From: Acidobacteriaceae bacterium
GTDB taxonomy: Bacteria > Acidobacteriota > Terriglobia > Terriglobales > Acidobacteriaceae
Assembly: GCA_003165005.1 (NCBI GenBank)
Contig: PLSB01000046.1
Location: 134-37,824, forward strand
Length of the DNA: 37,691 bases
Direction of reading: 5' to 3'
Position 1 is the first letter of the stretch, and each line of letters opens with the position of its first letter. Below, piece by piece: positions 10,587 to 33,819 of this stretch. Both the position numbers and the translations under genes were made by a program. The notes below the pieces were generated by a model. It was not told where the DNA came from. It worked only from the letters and a program-made list of their open reading frames with translations, and made no database searches.

Positions 10587-11567
10587 CTATCTCTCGGCCT
10601 CGCGCAGCGCCTCCAGCAATTTGCGATCCTCGGCGCTTAACGCCGCGCGCTCCAGCAGATCCGGCCGGTTTTTGAGCGTCTTCTTCAGTTGCTGCTCGCG
10701 CCGCCAGCGCCGGATCCCGGCATGGTCGCCGTTCAAGAGCACCTCCGGCGCGCGCAACCCGCCAAATTCGGCCGGCCGCGTGTAATGCGGATAGTCGAGC
10801 AGCCCTCCCGCTCCATGCTGCGAGCGCGGAACCCCCTCGACGTCCACATCGATCTCCGCGTCGGCCGCGCCAAAACTCTCGAACTCGCCCGAAGCCTCAT
10901 TGCCCAGCACGCCCGGAACCAGCCGCATGGTCGCGTCGACCACCACCGCCGCCGCCGGCTCGCCGCCGCTCAGCACATAATCCCCAATCGACAGCTCCAT
11001 GTCGCAGTAGAGCTCGTTGATGCGCTCATCGACGCCTTCGTACCGCCCGCAGATGAGCACCACGCGCTCCAGCCCGGCAAGCTCCCGCGCCACGGCCTGC
11101 GTAAACACCCGCCCCTGTGCCGAGAGTAGGATCACGCGTGTCCCGGCTGCGTCTCGCTTATCCGCTGACTCGCAGGCTTCCTCGCTCGCCAGGGGTGCCC
11201 CATCCTTGGCGCAGCTTTTTGCGCCAAGGGTGGGATCGCTGCTGACTTGATCACTCGCCGAATCGCTGACTCGCCGAGTCGCTGACTCGCTGGCTTGCTG
11301 ACTTGCCGACCCGCTCGCCAAACGCTCCGCCTTCGTTCCGATCTCGAGCTTCTCGAGCGCTTCGGCCAGCGGCTCCGGCTTCAGCACCATGCCTTCTCCG
11401 CCGCCAAACGGCCGGTCGTCCACCGTGCGATGGCGGTCGTGCGTAAACTCGCGCAGATCGTGCAGCCGGATCTCAACCAGCCCTTCAGCCTGCGCACGGC
11501 GCACAATGCCCTGCGCAAACACGCTTTCAAAATAGCCGGGGAAGAGAGTCACGATATCGAAGCGCAT
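10587..11567 (-). CDS. trmD: tRNA (guanine-N1)-methyltransferase with a repeat-derived internal insertion
   Basis: MRFDIVTLFPGYFESVF...HRTVDDRPFGGGEGMVLKPEPL...LICGRYEGVDERI...SIGDYVLSGGEPAA...VPGVLGNEASGEFESF...LLDYPHYTRPAEFGGLRAPEVLLNGDHAGIRRWRREQQL. Confidence 0.95.
   Translation of the reverse strand: MRFDIVTLFPGYFESVFAQGIVRRAQAEGLVEIRLHDLREFTHDRHRTVDDRPFGGGEGMVLKPEPLAEALEKLEIGTKAERLASGSASQQASESATRRVSDSASDQVSSDPTLGAKSCAKDGAPLASEEACESADKRDAAGTRVILLSAQGRVFTQAVARELAGLERVVLICGRYEGVDERINELYCDMELSIGDYVLSGGEPAAAVVVDATMRLVPGVLGNEASGEFESFGAADAEIDVDVEGVPRSQHGAGGLLDYPHYTRPAEFGGLRAPEVLLNGDHAGIRRWRREQQLKKTLKNRPDLLERAALSAEDRKLLEALREAER
11195..11237. repeat. Palindromic element family A, intragenic copy (inside trmD)
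   Basis: gtgccccatCCTTGGCGCAgcttttTGCGCCAAGGgtgggatc; same outer sequence and architecture as 31015-31056 and 31150-31190. Confidence 0.85.
11238..11319. repeat. Degenerate short-period array built on (G)CTGACTCGC inside trmD
   Basis: gctgctgacttgatcactcgccgaatcgctgactcgccgagtcgctgactcgctggcttgctgacttgccgacccgctcgcc. Confidence 0.75.
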
Positions 11568-11633
11568 ACTCTCTGATCATAGAAGCGCGCGCTTGATCTG
11601 CCATCTCGACTCGCCGTTTTCTTTTTCCCTTGG

Positions 11634-11697
11634 TCCCTGCCTTCTTGATCCCTTGGTCCCTTGGTCCCTTGTTCCCTCGGTCCCTTGGTCCCTGCCT
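11634..11697. repeat. Degenerate CCCTTGGTCC(CTT) array adjacent to a stop codon
   Basis: cttggtccctgccttcttgatcccttggtcccttggtcccttgttccctcggtcccttggtccctgcc, ending just before the gene stop at 11700. Confidence 0.8.
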
Positions 11698-23297: not shown

Positions 23298-24052
23298 TGA
23301 TTCACGCAGTGGTGGCAGACGATGAAGTCCTGGCAAGGCAGAAGTTGCGCCAATTGCTTCGCGACGACCGCGACATTGAGATCGTAGGCGAGTCGGCAAC
23401 TGCCCTGGAGACGATCGAACTGGTGAAAGCAACGAGCCCGGAGTTGCTGTTCCTCGACATTCGCATGCCGGGTATGGATGGATTCGATGTCGTCGATGCG
23501 TTGGCCAATCACGCGGATGTTTCGTTGCCGCGCATCATTTTCACCACGGCCTACGACCAATATGCCCTGCGCGCCTTCGAGGTCAATGCCGTCGACTATT
23601 TGTTGAAGCCCTTTACGCAAGAGAGACTGCGCACTGCCATCGAACGGGTTCGCGAGCAGTCTCAGGCGAAGCCGCAGGGAACCGGCGCTGCGAACGGGAA
23701 AAGCCAGGGCGTCAATTTTTACACCAACCGCATCATCTTCAAGTCGCGTGGCCGCATTCTGTTTCTGCCCGTATCGGACATTCGCTGGATTGGCGCCGAG
23801 GGCAATTATGTGCGCCTTTCCACGGCAATGGAGACTCACCTTTTGCGGGAAACCATGGCTCACCTTGCGGAGCGGCTCGATCCGCGAGGATTCCTCCGCG
23901 TGCATCGCTCGTTCATTGTGAACCTGAAGTATGTGAAGGAGGTGCGCCGGGAAAGCAACGGTGACTCCGTCGTGATCATGGATAGCGGCCAGAAGGTTGC
24001 ATTGGGCCGCAGCTATCGCTCGTCACTTACCGAGCAGCTCCATCGCGCGTGA
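23297..24052 (+). CDS. LytTR-type DNA-binding response regulator
   Basis: VADDEVLARQKLRQLL...LLFLDIRMPGMDGFDVVDAL...DYLLKPF...RILFLPVSDIRWIGAEGNYVRLST...FLRVHRSFIVNLKYVKEVRRES; TGATG overlap with the kinase gene. Confidence 0.94.
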   Translation: MIHAVVADDEVLARQKLRQLLRDDRDIEIVGESATALETIELVKATSPELLFLDIRMPGMDGFDVVDALANHADVSLPRIIFTTAYDQYALRAFEVNAVDYLLKPFTQERLRTAIERVREQSQAKPQGTGAANGKSQGVNFYTNRIIFKSRGRILFLPVSDIRWIGAEGNYVRLSTAMETHLLRETMAHLAERLDPRGFLRVHRSFIVNLKYVKEVRRESNGDSVVIMDSGQKVALGRSYRSSLTEQLHRA

Positions 24053-24065
24053 AAATCACGCGGCC

Positions 24066-24232
24066 TTACGCTCCCGCCGCGTTCAAATCCACCAACCCCT
24101 CCGGCAGCGCCATTTCCACGCGCTTGCCTTCAAGGTCCATCCGGCGCAGGTAGCTCTTCGCAAACGGGATCAGCAGCTCGCCGCTTGCGCCGCGCACCAC
24201 GAGAATCGGCACCGGTCCGGCCGTCCGGTCTA
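24066..24232 (-). pseudogene. Truncated 3' fragment of rimM
   Basis: VDRTAGPVPILVVRGASGELLIPFAKSYLRRMDLEGKRVEMALPEGLVDLNAAGA is near-identical to the C-terminus of the full rimM at 26573-27241. The DNA aligns ungapped at a constant offset of 2507 bp. Confidence 0.88.
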
Positions 24233-24390
24233 CTCTCCGTTCGATTTGGTCCACGAGAGGCATGCGCGTGTGGATGCATGTCGCGTTCGAAGCCGGGCTG
24301 CTCGCGTCGCAGGGTTGAAACAAAGCGCATTAGGCTGCTCCCCGCTATCAAATACACTGATGTGAACCACCAGAATGCTGGAGTAGCAGC

Positions 24391-26339: not shown

Positions 26340-26557
26340 TCGCCTCTCGCGCCCCGCAAACAGGCCCTGGCGCATTCACAGCATCCTTCTGTCCCGGTGC
26401 TTCCTCCACACCCGTCACAGCATCTGCGCCCACGGCCTCAATTCGGCAATCGCTTCCGCCACGTTCGCCGGATTTGGTCCGCCCACTGCGATCCGAAGTT
26501 CCTTTGGCGCAAGGCCCGGCTCTTGAGAATGCAAACTCACCACGGCATGAGGCGCAT
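26340..26557 (-). pseudogene. trpF-like (phosphoribosylanthranilate isomerase) C-terminal relic with a frameshift
   Basis: Reverse strand reads ...HSQEPGLAPKELRIAVGGPNPANVAEAIAELRPW (26430-26483), then, after a one-nucleotide shift, ADAVTGVEEAPGQKDA (26380-26427). This matches the TrpF pattern GGLNPENV..AI...RP[FW].VD..SGVE..PGKKD. Confidence 0.55.
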
Positions 26558-26572
26558 GAAAATCACGCACCC

Positions 26573-27241
26573 TCACGCTCCCGGCGCGTTCAAATCCACT
26601 AACCCCTCGGGTAGCGCCATTTCTACGCGCCTGCCTTCGAGGTCGAGCTTGCGCAGGTAGCTCTTGGCGAACGGGATCAGCACCTCGCCGCTTGCGCCGC
26701 GCACCACGAGAAGCGGTACGGGGCCGGCCGTCCGGTCCACGTCCTCAATCTCGCCGACATTCACCGTTGCCGCACCCGCCACGTCCACCAGCACGCACCC
26801 GATCAGGTCGCCGATGTAGGTTTCATCGGCGGCAAGCGGAGCTCGATCGGCTTGCGGAATGGCCACCACCAGCCCCTTCAGCTCTTCCGCTGCGCTGATC
26901 GAGTCCACGCCCGCGAAGTGCAGCACGATACCGCCTTTGTGCAGCCAGTGGTTGGCCAGGTCCATGGGACGAACCTGAGGAGGAACGGGCATGGTCTCCC
27001 GGGTCCCCAAGTGCGAGGGACCCGGGGCACCCACACCCACACCCACACTCACACTCACACTCACACTCGCACCCGCACTCGACGGGGCTCCCGCGCCGTC
27101 AGGCTTGAGCACCCACAAACGCTTACGTTCAGTAAATTTTTCAGGGAAATCGGTGAGAAGCTCGGCGAGAACCTCGCCTTTGCGGCCTTGCGGACGGCGA
27201 ATCCGCGCCAGCCAAACCCATGTTTCCGGCTGTACCGGCAC
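26573..27241 (-). CDS. rimM: 16S rRNA processing protein RimM with a repeat-derived internal insertion
   Basis: WVWLARIRRPQGRKGEVLAELLTDFPEKFTERKRLWVLKPDG [insert] ...HKGGIVLHFAGVDSISAAEELKGLVVAIP...YIGDLIGCVLVD...GEIEDVDRTAGPVPLLVVRGASGEVLIPFAKSYLRKLDLEGRRVEMALPEGLVDL; located next to khpA and rpsP. Confidence 0.93.
   Translation of the reverse strand: MPVQPETWVWLARIRRPQGRKGEVLAELLTDFPEKFTERKRLWVLKPDGAGAPSSAGASVSVSVSVGVGVGAPGPSHLGTRETMPVPPQVRPMDLANHWLHKGGIVLHFAGVDSISAAEELKGLVVAIPQADRAPLAADETYIGDLIGCVLVDVAGAATVNVGEIEDVDRTAGPVPLLVVRGASGEVLIPFAKSYLRKLDLEGRRVEMALPEGLVDLNAPGA
26996..27031. repeat. Palindromic element family B, intragenic copy (inside rimM)
   Basis: tcCCCGGGTCCC-caagtgcga-GGGACCCGGGgcaccc-type palindrome; same core (GGTCCCCAAGTGCGAGGGACC) as the reverse complement of 31090-31126. 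Confidence 0.85.
27028..27081. repeat. Hexanucleotide (CACACT/CACACC-type) array inside rimM
   Basis: cacccacacccacacccacactcacactcacactcacactcgcacccgcactcg; encodes SVSVSVSVGVGVG on the minus strand. Confidence 0.9.
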
Positions 27242-30366: not shown

Positions 30367-30957
30367 CTAACTCGCGGTCTTCTTCAGCAGCCACGCCATG
30401 TTCTGCCCCAGCGTCTTCATGGTCTGGATGCCTTCCAGGTCCTTTTCCACGTCGCCTTTCTCAAGGCCGATGCCGATGTTCCAATAGGACGAGCCGGGAA
30501 CGATCATCTCGCTGATCAGGAAGAAATGATTCAGCGTGTCGAAGGCGTGCATGGCGCCGGCGCGGCGCACCGCAACCACCGCTGCGCCCACCTTGCGCCG
30601 GAAGATGCCGCCGTTGGACTTCGACACCAGGCAGGCGCGGTCCATGAGCGCCTTCATCTCAGAGGACACGTCTGCCACATACGTTGGTGAACCAAGAAGA
30701 ATTCCGTCCGCCTGCTCCATCTTCTCGATGTACGTGTTGCCCATGTCGTTTTTCTGTCCGCAACGCCGGTCCTTGTTCTTCGAGCACTCGCGGCACGCCA
30801 GGCACCCGTGGATTTTGGCCCCGCTCATCTCGATCAACTCGGTCCCGATGCCTTCTTTTTCGAGCTCCCTCAGCACGTAGCCCAGCAGGATCGCAGTATT
30901 TCCGCCCTTGCGCGCGCTGCCGTTCAGCGCCACAACCTTCAAACTTTTCCCTTCCAT
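30367..30957 (-). CDS. Flavodoxin-like / NADPH-dependent FMN reductase family protein
   Basis: MEGKSLKVVALNGSARKGGNTAILLGYVLRELEKEGIGTELIEMSGAKIHGCLACRECSKNKDRRCGQKNDMGNTYIEKMEQADGILLGSPTYVADVSSEMKALMDRA. The ORF extends upstream only through intergenic repeats. Confidence 0.92.
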   Translation of the reverse strand: MEGKSLKVVALNGSARKGGNTAILLGYVLRELEKEGIGTELIEMSGAKIHGCLACRECSKNKDRRCGQKNDMGNTYIEKMEQADGILLGSPTYVADVSSEMKALMDRACLVSKSNGGIFRRKVGAAVVAVRRAGAMHAFDTLNHFFLISEMIVPGSSYWNIGIGLEKGDVEKDLEGIQTMKTLGQNMAWLLKKTAS

Positions 30958-31014
30958 TTGTTCCGTCTTCCTTTCCTGTTGGAGTGATTTAAAAAAATCC
31001 CTCAAAAAAATCCC

Positions 31015-31056
31015 GTGCCCCATCCTTTCCGCGTTTTTTGCGGAAAGGGTGGGATC
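31015..31056. repeat. Palindromic element family A, intergenic copy 1
   Basis: gtgccccatccTTTCCGCgttttttGCGGAAAgggtgggatc. Confidence 0.9.
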
Positions 31057-31089
31057 ACGGCCAAACTCTACGCTCACCTCGAAAATGGG

Positions 31090-31126
31090 TGCCCAGGTCC
31101 CTCGCACTTGGGGACCTGGGAGAGCA
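31090..31126. repeat. Palindromic element family B, intergenic copy
   Basis: tgCCCAGGTCCCtcgcacttgGGGACCTGGGagagca; matches the rimM copy in reverse orientation. Confidence 0.88.
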
Positions 31127-31149
31127 CAATTCCCAACCCAGCCGGGGCC

Positions 31150-31190
31150 GTGCCCCATCCTTTCCGCGCTCGTTGCGGAAAGGGTGGGAT
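31150..31190. repeat. Palindromic element family A, intergenic copy 2
   Basis: gtgccccatccTTTCCGCgctcgttGCGGAAAgggtgggat. Confidence 0.9.
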
Positions 31191-31467
31191 ACCGTGGACC
31201 GCACCTTTTTCCTTCTGTGCGGAATCTAACCCCGCTAGCACCGCTAGCTCCGCTGACACGCTCAAACTCACTATTGTGCCTCCAGCGGCCGGTCTTGTCT
31301 GTGACGCATGAAATAAATGCCCAAACGCCGGGAACCTTTTTGCCCGCCGCGTGGTCAAAGGAAATAGCGCCTGCATACACCCAAGCCGAGGATTCTTTTT
31401 GCAAGAATCGCAGGCAGTTGCGTTCAACGGTCGAGGGCTGCCGTCAGGGCTCTCTTCAGGAGGAGTC

Positions 31468-33636
31468 ATGCGCCGTTCCCTTCCCGCTGTTCTGCTCTTC
31501 GTTCTCCCGCTCGCGCTTCTCGCCCAAAACGTCAAAGCCCCCGCCGCCAAAGCGACGCCCTCGGTCGCGCCCGCCGCTATCGACCTGCCGGTGCGCAAGG
31601 TCGTGCTCTATAAGAACGGCGTGGGCTACTTTGAGCACGCCGGCACAGTCAACGGCAACCAGCGCGTGACCGTCGATTTCACCTCCGCGCAGTTGAACGA
31701 CGTGCTGCAGTCGCTCACCGCGCTCGACAGCAAAGGCGGAACCATCGGCGCCGTCGGCTACAACTCCACCATGCCCATCGAGCAGCAATTGAACACGCTG
31801 GCGCTGGGCCTCAAGGATTACCCCGCGACGTTGCAGGTCTATCAGGCGCTGCGCGGCCAGCGCGTGGAAGTGACGGGCGCGGGCGGTGCGCTCACGGGCC
31901 GCCTCGTCAACATCGAGTATCGCAAGGAAACCGACAAGAACGGAGCTACCTCCGAAGACCATTACTTCCTCATCGTCGAGACCGATGCGGGCGCGCTACG
32001 CACGGCCGAGATCACCGACTCCGTCTCGGTGCGCATGATCGATCCCACGCTCGAAAAGCAGTTCACATCGTATCTCGAAATCATCGCCTCGGCGCACGAT
32101 CAGCAGTTGCGCCACTTGACGCTCGAAGACCGCGGCCAGGGCGAGCGCCGATTGCAGGTCAGCTACATCAGCGAAGTGCCCGTATGGAAGTCCACCTATC
32201 GCATCGTCTTCCCGCGCGACCCCAACGGCAACGCCACCGTGCAGGGATGGGCGGTGGTGGATAACGCCGTGGGCGTGGACTGGGACAACGTAGAGTTGTC
32301 GCTTGTAGCCGGCGCGCCGCAGAGTTTCATCCAGCCACTCTCGCAGCCGCTCTACACCCACCGGCCGATGATTCCGATTGCGACCGTGGCGCAGAATTCG
32401 CCCATTACGCATGAGGCGACGGAAACAGTCACGGTGCAATCGGAGATGATGAACAATCAGCTCACGGCGCCCGCCCAAATCCCGCGTAACATGGCGCTGG
32501 CCATGAAGGCTGCGCCGCCTGCGAGCTTCGGCGTGGCCGGCATGGAAGGCATGGGCGGCGGACTCGGCTCCGGTTCTGGCGAGGGCTACGGCGGCGGCGT
32601 CTATCGCGCGTCGGACACGATCCATGAGGGCGACGTCTCCACCAACGCCTTCGACGACTTCTTCGAATACGCGCTCACCCTGCCGGTCACCATCCAAAAA
32701 AACCAATCGGCGATGGTGCCCATCCTTCAGCAGGAGCTGCCCGCAACCCACGTCACCCTGTGGAGCGACACGCACCCCACGCCGCTGCGCGCCATCTCGC
32801 TCGAAAACACGTCGAAGCTCACGCTTGATTCCGGCAGCTTCTCGATCTTTGAAAGCGGTGAGTTCGCCGGCGAGGGCCTGCTCGATCCCATTCATCCCGG
32901 AGAAAAGCGCCTGCTCTCCTACGCCGTCGATCAGGCGGTCAAGGTGCGCCGCGACGACTCTTCCCAGACGCGCACGCTGCATCACGTAGCCATGCACGAG
33001 GGCGTGCTGGTGGAGACCACGAGTTCGGTGACCGACACCACCTACACCGTGACCAACGCCGGCGATGAAACGCGAGCAGTCATTATCGAACACACGCGCC
33101 AGCCCCGCGCCGACCTCGACTCCGATGTGAAGCCGGAAGAGACCACGGCTACGGCCTATCGTTTCCGGCTGGCCGTCGAGCCGCATCAGACCAAGGAGCT
33201 GCACGTGCGCGAGCACGCCGACATCGTGAACAGAGTGCAGCTCGGGACGCAATTCCAAAACGGCGACACTCTGATTGTCGTGGGCAAGTACTCGCCGGCG
33301 CTCGCTGAGACGTTGAAGCCGGCCATCGACGCCCAGACGGCGCTCGCCGATCTGAGCGCCAAGATCGACGAGAACAGCGAAAAGCAAAAGACCCTCGCCG
33401 ACGACGAGAACCGCTATCGCGAGAACCTGAAGGCGTTGAAAGACACTGCCACGGCCAAGCGTTTTGTCGACGAGTTGAATCAGGCCGAGGATGCTATCGA
33501 AGCGGCGCGCAAGGAGCAGGCCGATCTCGAAAAGCAGCGCGACGCAGCCCAGGCGCATCTCGACAGCATCATCTCTAAACTTTCCTTCGACAGCGACCTC
33601 GACGTGGTGCTGTCAAAGACAGGGACTAGGGACTAG
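31468..33636 (+). CDS. DUF4139 domain-containing protein
   Basis: Signal peptide; VRKVVLYKNGVGYFEHAGTVNG ... LQVSYISEVPVWKSTYRIVF ... WDNVELSLVAGAPQSF; C-terminal coiled coil; SD aggagt just upstream. Confidence 0.88.
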   Translation: MRRSLPAVLLFVLPLALLAQNVKAPAAKATPSVAPAAIDLPVRKVVLYKNGVGYFEHAGTVNGNQRVTVDFTSAQLNDVLQSLTALDSKGGTIGAVGYNSTMPIEQQLNTLALGLKDYPATLQVYQALRGQRVEVTGAGGALTGRLVNIEYRKETDKNGATSEDHYFLIVETDAGALRTAEITDSVSVRMIDPTLEKQFTSYLEIIASAHDQQLRHLTLEDRGQGERRLQVSYISEVPVWKSTYRIVFPRDPNGNATVQGWAVVDNAVGVDWDNVELSLVAGAPQSFIQPLSQPLYTHRPMIPIATVAQNSPITHEATETVTVQSEMMNNQLTAPAQIPRNMALAMKAAPPASFGVAGMEGMGGGLGSGSGEGYGGGVYRASDTIHEGDVSTNAFDDFFEYALTLPVTIQKNQSAMVPILQQELPATHVTLWSDTHPTPLRAISLENTSKLTLDSGSFSIFESGEFAGEGLLDPIHPGEKRLLSYAVDQAVKVRRDDSSQTRTLHHVAMHEGVLVETTSSVTDTTYTVTNAGDETRAVIIEHTRQPRADLDSDVKPEETTATAYRFRLAVEPHQTKELHVREHADIVNRVQLGTQFQNGDTLIVVGKYSPALAETLKPAIDAQTALADLSAKIDENSEKQKTLADDENRYRENLKALKDTATAKRFVDELNQAEDAIEAARKEQADLEKQRDAAQAHLDSIISKLSFDSDLDVVLSKTGTRD

Positions 33637-33651
33637 GGAAGCTGCGGCTGG

Positions 33652-33774
33652 GTGTGAGTGTGAGTGTGAGTGCGCCGGACAGATACAACCACACTCACAC
33701 TCACACTCGCACTCACACTCACACCCACACCCACACTCACACTCGCACTCACACTCGCACTCGCACTCACACTG
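33652..33774. repeat. Hexanucleotide array with an inverted left arm, intergenic
   Basis: gtgtgagtgtgagtgtgagtgcg (33652-33674), spacer, then (cacact/cgcact/cacacc)n to 33774. Confidence 0.92.
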
Positions 33775-33819
33775 ACCACTGATCACTGACCACTGACCAC
33801 CGATCACGTACACTGTTTC

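Follow-up and report, generated by a model that had tools for sequence, protein, structure and literature searches.

A gap between two divergent genes in a draft Acidobacteriaceae genome holds three palindromes of two kinds, arranged A-B-A, and an open reading frame runs through them into a gene for a flavodoxin-like protein. Do these palindromes serve that gene, as coding sequence or as RNA, or do they belong to something else? We analysed the locus in a window of 37,691 nucleotides, the whole stretch of DNA under study, together with the rest of the draft genome and its relatives. We suggest that A and B are, very probably, non-autonomous REP-like elements spread by RAYT/TnpA_REP transposases, which are HUH single-strand nucleases, and that each family has a RAYT lineage of its own. 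We favour this explanation because of the copy number of the elements, their extragenic placement, the covariation of their stems, their near-invariant head, wobble and 3' A, the flanking of RAYT genes by hairpins, and the way in which RAYTs and REPs vary together on a tree. The hairpins are a variant of a known mobile repeat and not a new gene or RNA. As part of the same very probable explanation, the A-B-A group is an insertion cluster in a permissive intergenic gap, and not a regulator built for the flavin reductase.

All three palindromes were found on the plus strand in the flavodoxin-like/DUF4139 gap, as the original prediction had claimed, within the 510 bp that separate the divergent ATGs at 30957 (minus) and 31468 (plus) (Table 1). 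The minus-strand neighbour is an NADPH-dependent FMN reductase (Pfam FMN_red) and the plus-strand neighbour a DUF4139 gene. Element 1 consists of a CC-GTGC head, a 14-15-bp stem with a T·G wobble, a loop of 5-7 nt, a GGGTGGGA foot and a CACG tail; the family B element has a GG-GTGC head, a CCAGGTCCC/GGGACCTGG stem, a GGGA foot and a GAGCAC tail. Folded as single-stranded DNA, the first A, the B and the second A gave z-scores against shuffles of -7.6, -2.9 and -5.1, and the copy in trmD gave -4.9.

Table 1. Coordinates of the repeat copies and host genes in the window
Feature	Coordinates	Strand	Remark
Family A REP-like element 1	31013..31059 (palindrome 31015-31054)	+	Matches genome-wide family
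Family B REP-like element	31087..31127 (palindrome 31089-31121)	+	B-type hairpins flank a separate RAYT clade
Family A REP-like element 2	31148..31195 (palindrome 31150-31189)	+	Same orientation as element 1
A-B-A cluster, direct orientation	31013..31195	+	Parts recur elsewhere in the same genome
Family A copy in trmD linker, in frame	11193..11240 (palindrome 11195-11235)	+ (gene on minus)	TrmD relatives without the copy
Further B-like palindrome	26992..27026	-	Compensatory A-T to G-C change (GTGCCCCGGGTCCC…GGGACCCGGGA)
Flavodoxin-like / NADPH-dependent FMN reductase gene	30367..30957	-	Host gene, outside the element
DUF4139 gene	31468..33636	+	Host gene, outside the element

The cluster, or its A-B part plus spacer, was found again on four other contigs of the same genome (C93, C326, C72 and C60). 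The spacer from the first A to B is similar in the window and C93, and the other three share a different one. Since spacers recur together with A-B units, it seems that pieces of the cluster were copied together. The three units of the window are co-oriented, which sets the cluster apart from REPINs and from classical BIMEs with their alternating units; at other places in the genome (C110 and C324) inverted pairs are present. Upstream of the flavin reductase, homologues in four same-genus genomes have different DNA and different neighbours, with no clean empty site; the intergenic DNA of relatives is too diverged, and no transposition event was seen. Two further repeats of the window may be recorded here. 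Within 26992-27104 the B-like palindrome directly adjoins a CACCCACACTCACACTC tandem array, with a similar array at 33649-33792, and positions 24045-24233 and 26552-26740 form a direct duplication of 189 bp that is 88% identical.

The foot common to A and B, GTGCCCCA…TGGGA, has 237 exact matches in the draft genome (3.9 Mb, 75% complete), 119 forward and 118 reverse, against 2 matches (0 forward, 2 reverse) for the reversed-pattern control. Our sample of 110 unique copies comprises 89 A, 14 B and 7 others. When A copies were chosen by imposing the A stem only, which gave 99 copies, a T·G wobble occupied the fifth pair in 93 and an A lay directly 3' of the stem (GGG-A) in 93. GTGC stood directly 5' of the stem in 91/99, preceded in A copies by CC or, less often, GG; GG precedes it in 14/14 sampled B copies. 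Many copies carry a tail resembling A(G/C)CACGAA, the CAC of which is complementary to the GTG of the head. Predicted genes contain 13/83 A copies, as called with a simple home-made hexamer model, and the coding share of the sampled DNA is 81%. These short palindromes, mostly extragenic and in more than 100 copies, are REPs in the broad sense; with GTGC in place of the 5' GT[AG]G at the hairpin foot, they do not belong to the GTAG REP superfamily. Among 74 genomes of the home family the foot pattern has a median count of 16.5 and a maximum of 239, and within the genus it ranges from 6 to 239 per genome; elsewhere in the same class most genomes have few matches, near the control. From these data, a REP system with a GTGC head is widespread in Acidobacteriaceae.

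The stem of the trmD copy (TTGGCGC/GCGCCAA) differs from that of the window A copies (TTTCCGC/GCGGAAA) while pairing is kept, exactly as had been noted, and the proposal that compensatory change maintains the structure was borne out among the genomic copies. In A copies, 98.4% of stem cells are paired, and 25 cells have changed on both sides compared with 4.7 in shuffles (0/500), a control in which relatedness among the copies stays in. The signal vanishes when the partner is shifted by one to three columns, and it is repeated in the copies of relatives. The outer stem is near-invariant and the inner stem varies freely yet remains paired. These patterns support the view that the stem is kept by compensatory change.

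This genome has a transposase of the A lineage, and an A copy stands on either side of it, the two in inverted orientation. Eight Y1 transposase genes were found, and the one on contig C234 matches NCBIfam NF047646 (REP_Tyr_transpos) with 117 bits against a cut-off of 80; the profile of its family matches the E. coli TnpA_REP structure 4er8 with an E-value of 2.5e-18. It carries the RAYT motif set defined in PMC2817692 (HUH, catalytic Tyr, NP(L/V)(R/K)xG and N-terminal Thr) as HVH at 61-63, Y124, NPVKRG and T18 (alignment A2). One A copy lies upstream of the gene on its own strand and the other downstream in inverse orientation, 8 nt beyond the aligned end of the protein. Its closest orthologues (L192-L195), from Acidobacteriaceae MAGs and the isolate AB60, are 67-77% identical; A-type hairpins are present at all four, and at L192 and L193 hairpins with matching stems lie inverted on both sides. 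Beside the seven remaining Y1 transposases of this genome no matching A or B hairpins were found, and a B-lineage RAYT was not found among the eight Y1 genes of the draft (75% complete), in which at least 14 B copies are present; that RAYT may be missing from the draft or lost.

Around 90 related RAYT loci, 32 strict hairpins were counted in the 69 kb within 400 bp of the gene, against 5 in the 484 kb beyond 1 kb, which is a 45-fold enrichment (p about 3e-24), and 26 of the 32 near hairpins have the expected inverted arrangement. The RAYT gene between two inverted REPs is seen at C234, at L192 and L193, and in the enrichment over the 90 loci. No strict-pattern hairpin was found within 400 bp at 69/90 of the sampled RAYTs, some of which have differing palindromes of their own. 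Hand-assigned stem classes beside the RAYTs track the RAYT tree, with 13 changes compared with 25.4 when shuffled (0/200). The B-like class falls nearly into a single RAYT clade, separate from A; one MAG, fen_408, contains L193, a RAYT flanked by A, as well as L254, a RAYT flanked by B. As a separate observation, at two loci of relatives (L057 and L153) the RAYT genes themselves contain GTGCCCCACTCAAGCC… hairpins, apparently REPs that inserted into the transposase gene.

The open reading frame had suggested that the palindromes might be coding and yield an N-terminally extended flavodoxin-like protein with DPTLSA…/YPTLSA… repeats, much as in Rickettsia palindromic elements (RPE). The peptides had been read correctly, the frame is indeed open from 31404, and the trmD copy truly lies in frame inside a gene, as RPEs do, being a genuine in-frame insertion in a linker of variable length among relatives. 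The two window copies were also said to share the frame of the trmD copy; palindrome lengths are 40 and 40 nt in the window and 41 nt in trmD, so this holds for the first half of the hairpin and fails beyond it. The meaning given to the open frame did not survive four separate lines of evidence. In four relatives, in-frame stops lie upstream of the flavodoxin-like start, and the extension has no counterpart; in the extended ORF of 345 residues, Pfam FMN_red starts at residue 156, after Met150, and a Pfam search found no domain in the 149-codon extension; frame scoring gave that extension -0.04 per codon, against 0.55 for the flavodoxin-like gene; and the hairpin is free of stops in almost every frame of almost all copies, whose lengths (38-50 nt genome-wide) fall in all three phases. 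The A/B family differs from RPEs, moreover, in being mainly extragenic and RAYT-linked. We conclude that the open reading frame is incidental and that the true start of the flavodoxin-like gene is most likely the ATG at 30957, and we regard a coding role as highly improbable, the least likely reading of these palindromes.

A strong fold and covariation would suit RNA too, and the hairpins could act in the transcript of the flavin reductase or of DUF4139, as terminators, as a structured 5' leader or by stabilising the mRNA. Most copies are flanked by co-directional or convergent genes, and a divergent gap like that of the window is a minority context (6 A copies). Of the extragenic copies of A and B, 60/83 have a 3' end as their closest gene end, so that some may have secondary effects on transcripts; this placement matches that published for REPs (PMC3733652). 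We do not favour a transcribed-RNA role, because the copies have no preferred strand between co-directional genes (24 same, 19 opposite, p 0.54) and because the terminator and promoter scan called nothing on the palindromes, including no GC hairpin with a U-tract of the Rho-independent type. In addition, an Rfam scan of the window at the gathering threshold gave 0 matches, the window palindromes sit 5' of both genes, and copies occur in hundreds of unrelated contexts. We give an RNA role no more than a slim chance. Movement was not directly observed, and one might instead see the hairpins as fixed binding sites or duplicated relics with no mobile history, the RAYT simply having ordinary neighbours; against this stand the enrichment and inverted orientation at RAYTs, the tracking of RAYT phylogeny by stem class and the variable copy number within the genus, which make such a static origin highly improbable.

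The REP-like explanation places the A and B elements alongside the REP/REPtron systems of E. coli and Stenotrophomonas (PMC2817692, PMC8266576), with which they share high-copy extragenic imperfect palindromes, a RAYT between inverted copies, a conserved unpaired head with a stem irregularity, and family-specific RAYT-REP pairing. Of the E. coli residues listed as reading GTAG (PMC6006769), the counterparts of W94, Q95, H101 and R104 are kept here and E100 is replaced by D. The differences are a GTGC head instead of GT[AG]G, a T·G wobble as the irregularity, the additional CC or GG in front of the head, and the CACGAA tail. The clusters resemble BIMEs and REPINs in their partly conserved spacers, but the window units all point one way instead of alternating. 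Acidobacterial tyrosine transposases were described earlier (TIRYT/TIRtron; PMC3733652); their flanking TIRs, of which some have GGGGWSAS in common, were said to bear no relation to GTAG REPs, and a repeat family was reported with them in Koribacter versatilis. Compared with A and B by the published description, they are alike in phylum, in transposase superfamily and in having inverted repeats beside the gene. Judged by head sequence, A and B are REP-like elements with their own RAYTs that fall outside the GTAG superfamily. What is new is the non-canonical GTGC head, the conserved T·G wobble and the restriction to one family.

We infer mobility and cleavage of these elements by analogy with the TnpA_REP proteins of E. 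coli and Marinomonas, the model for binding, head reading and cutting (PMC8266576). The RAYT would bind the element as a folded single strand, recognise its tetranucleotide head together with the stem irregularity (the wobble) or the loop, cut near the foot at a dinucleotide chosen by the head, and rejoin the element elsewhere; selection for recognition by the RAYT would keep the stem paired while its sequence drifts. Given a GTGC head, the published cross-pairing rule would predict a GA or GC cut, and the near-invariant GGG-A beside the stem would fit such a site. We tentatively propose, as a possibility that we think somewhat doubtful, that GTGC is a re-specified guide: the last base of the tetranucleotide would have changed in an Acidobacteriaceae-wide RAYT radiation while the head-reading residues stayed, cleavage would have moved from CT to GA or GC with the 3' A (GGG-A, 93/99) in the new site, and the A and B lineages, with the same core head, would have diversified through their stems and flanking CC/GG.

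The REP-like explanation accounts for hundreds of intergenic Acidobacteriaceae hairpins, which could otherwise be mistaken for RNA genes, terminators or coding repeats, and it links them with a transposase family. Because their head is GTGC and not the GT[AG]G of the REP systems investigated to date, these elements offer a natural test of how a REP head sets the cleavage site, and also one of RAYT-REP co-evolution over several stem classes.

REP insertions in flexible linkers are known (PMC6006769). The tRNA methyltransferase gene trmD here tolerates a REP within its reading frame, and other genes have been reported to do so as well. The linker (window 11153-11312, minus strand, residues about 90-140) holds degenerate 8-bp repeats (GCTGACTC) besides the A copy, and tandem 8-bp CTTGGTCC repeats lie between trmD and the neighbouring gene at 11621-11691. 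In same-genus relatives the TrmD linker is hypervariable, and three of them (G154, G160 and G167) carry another insert, reading …RALA(P/L)EG. RALAPAM/RALAPEG-like peptides, present in these relatives' TrmD linkers, are also found upstream of Y1 transposase ORFs in the same genome (L011, L012) and in relatives (L113, L115, L119), and possibly mark a second transposase-associated repeat family.
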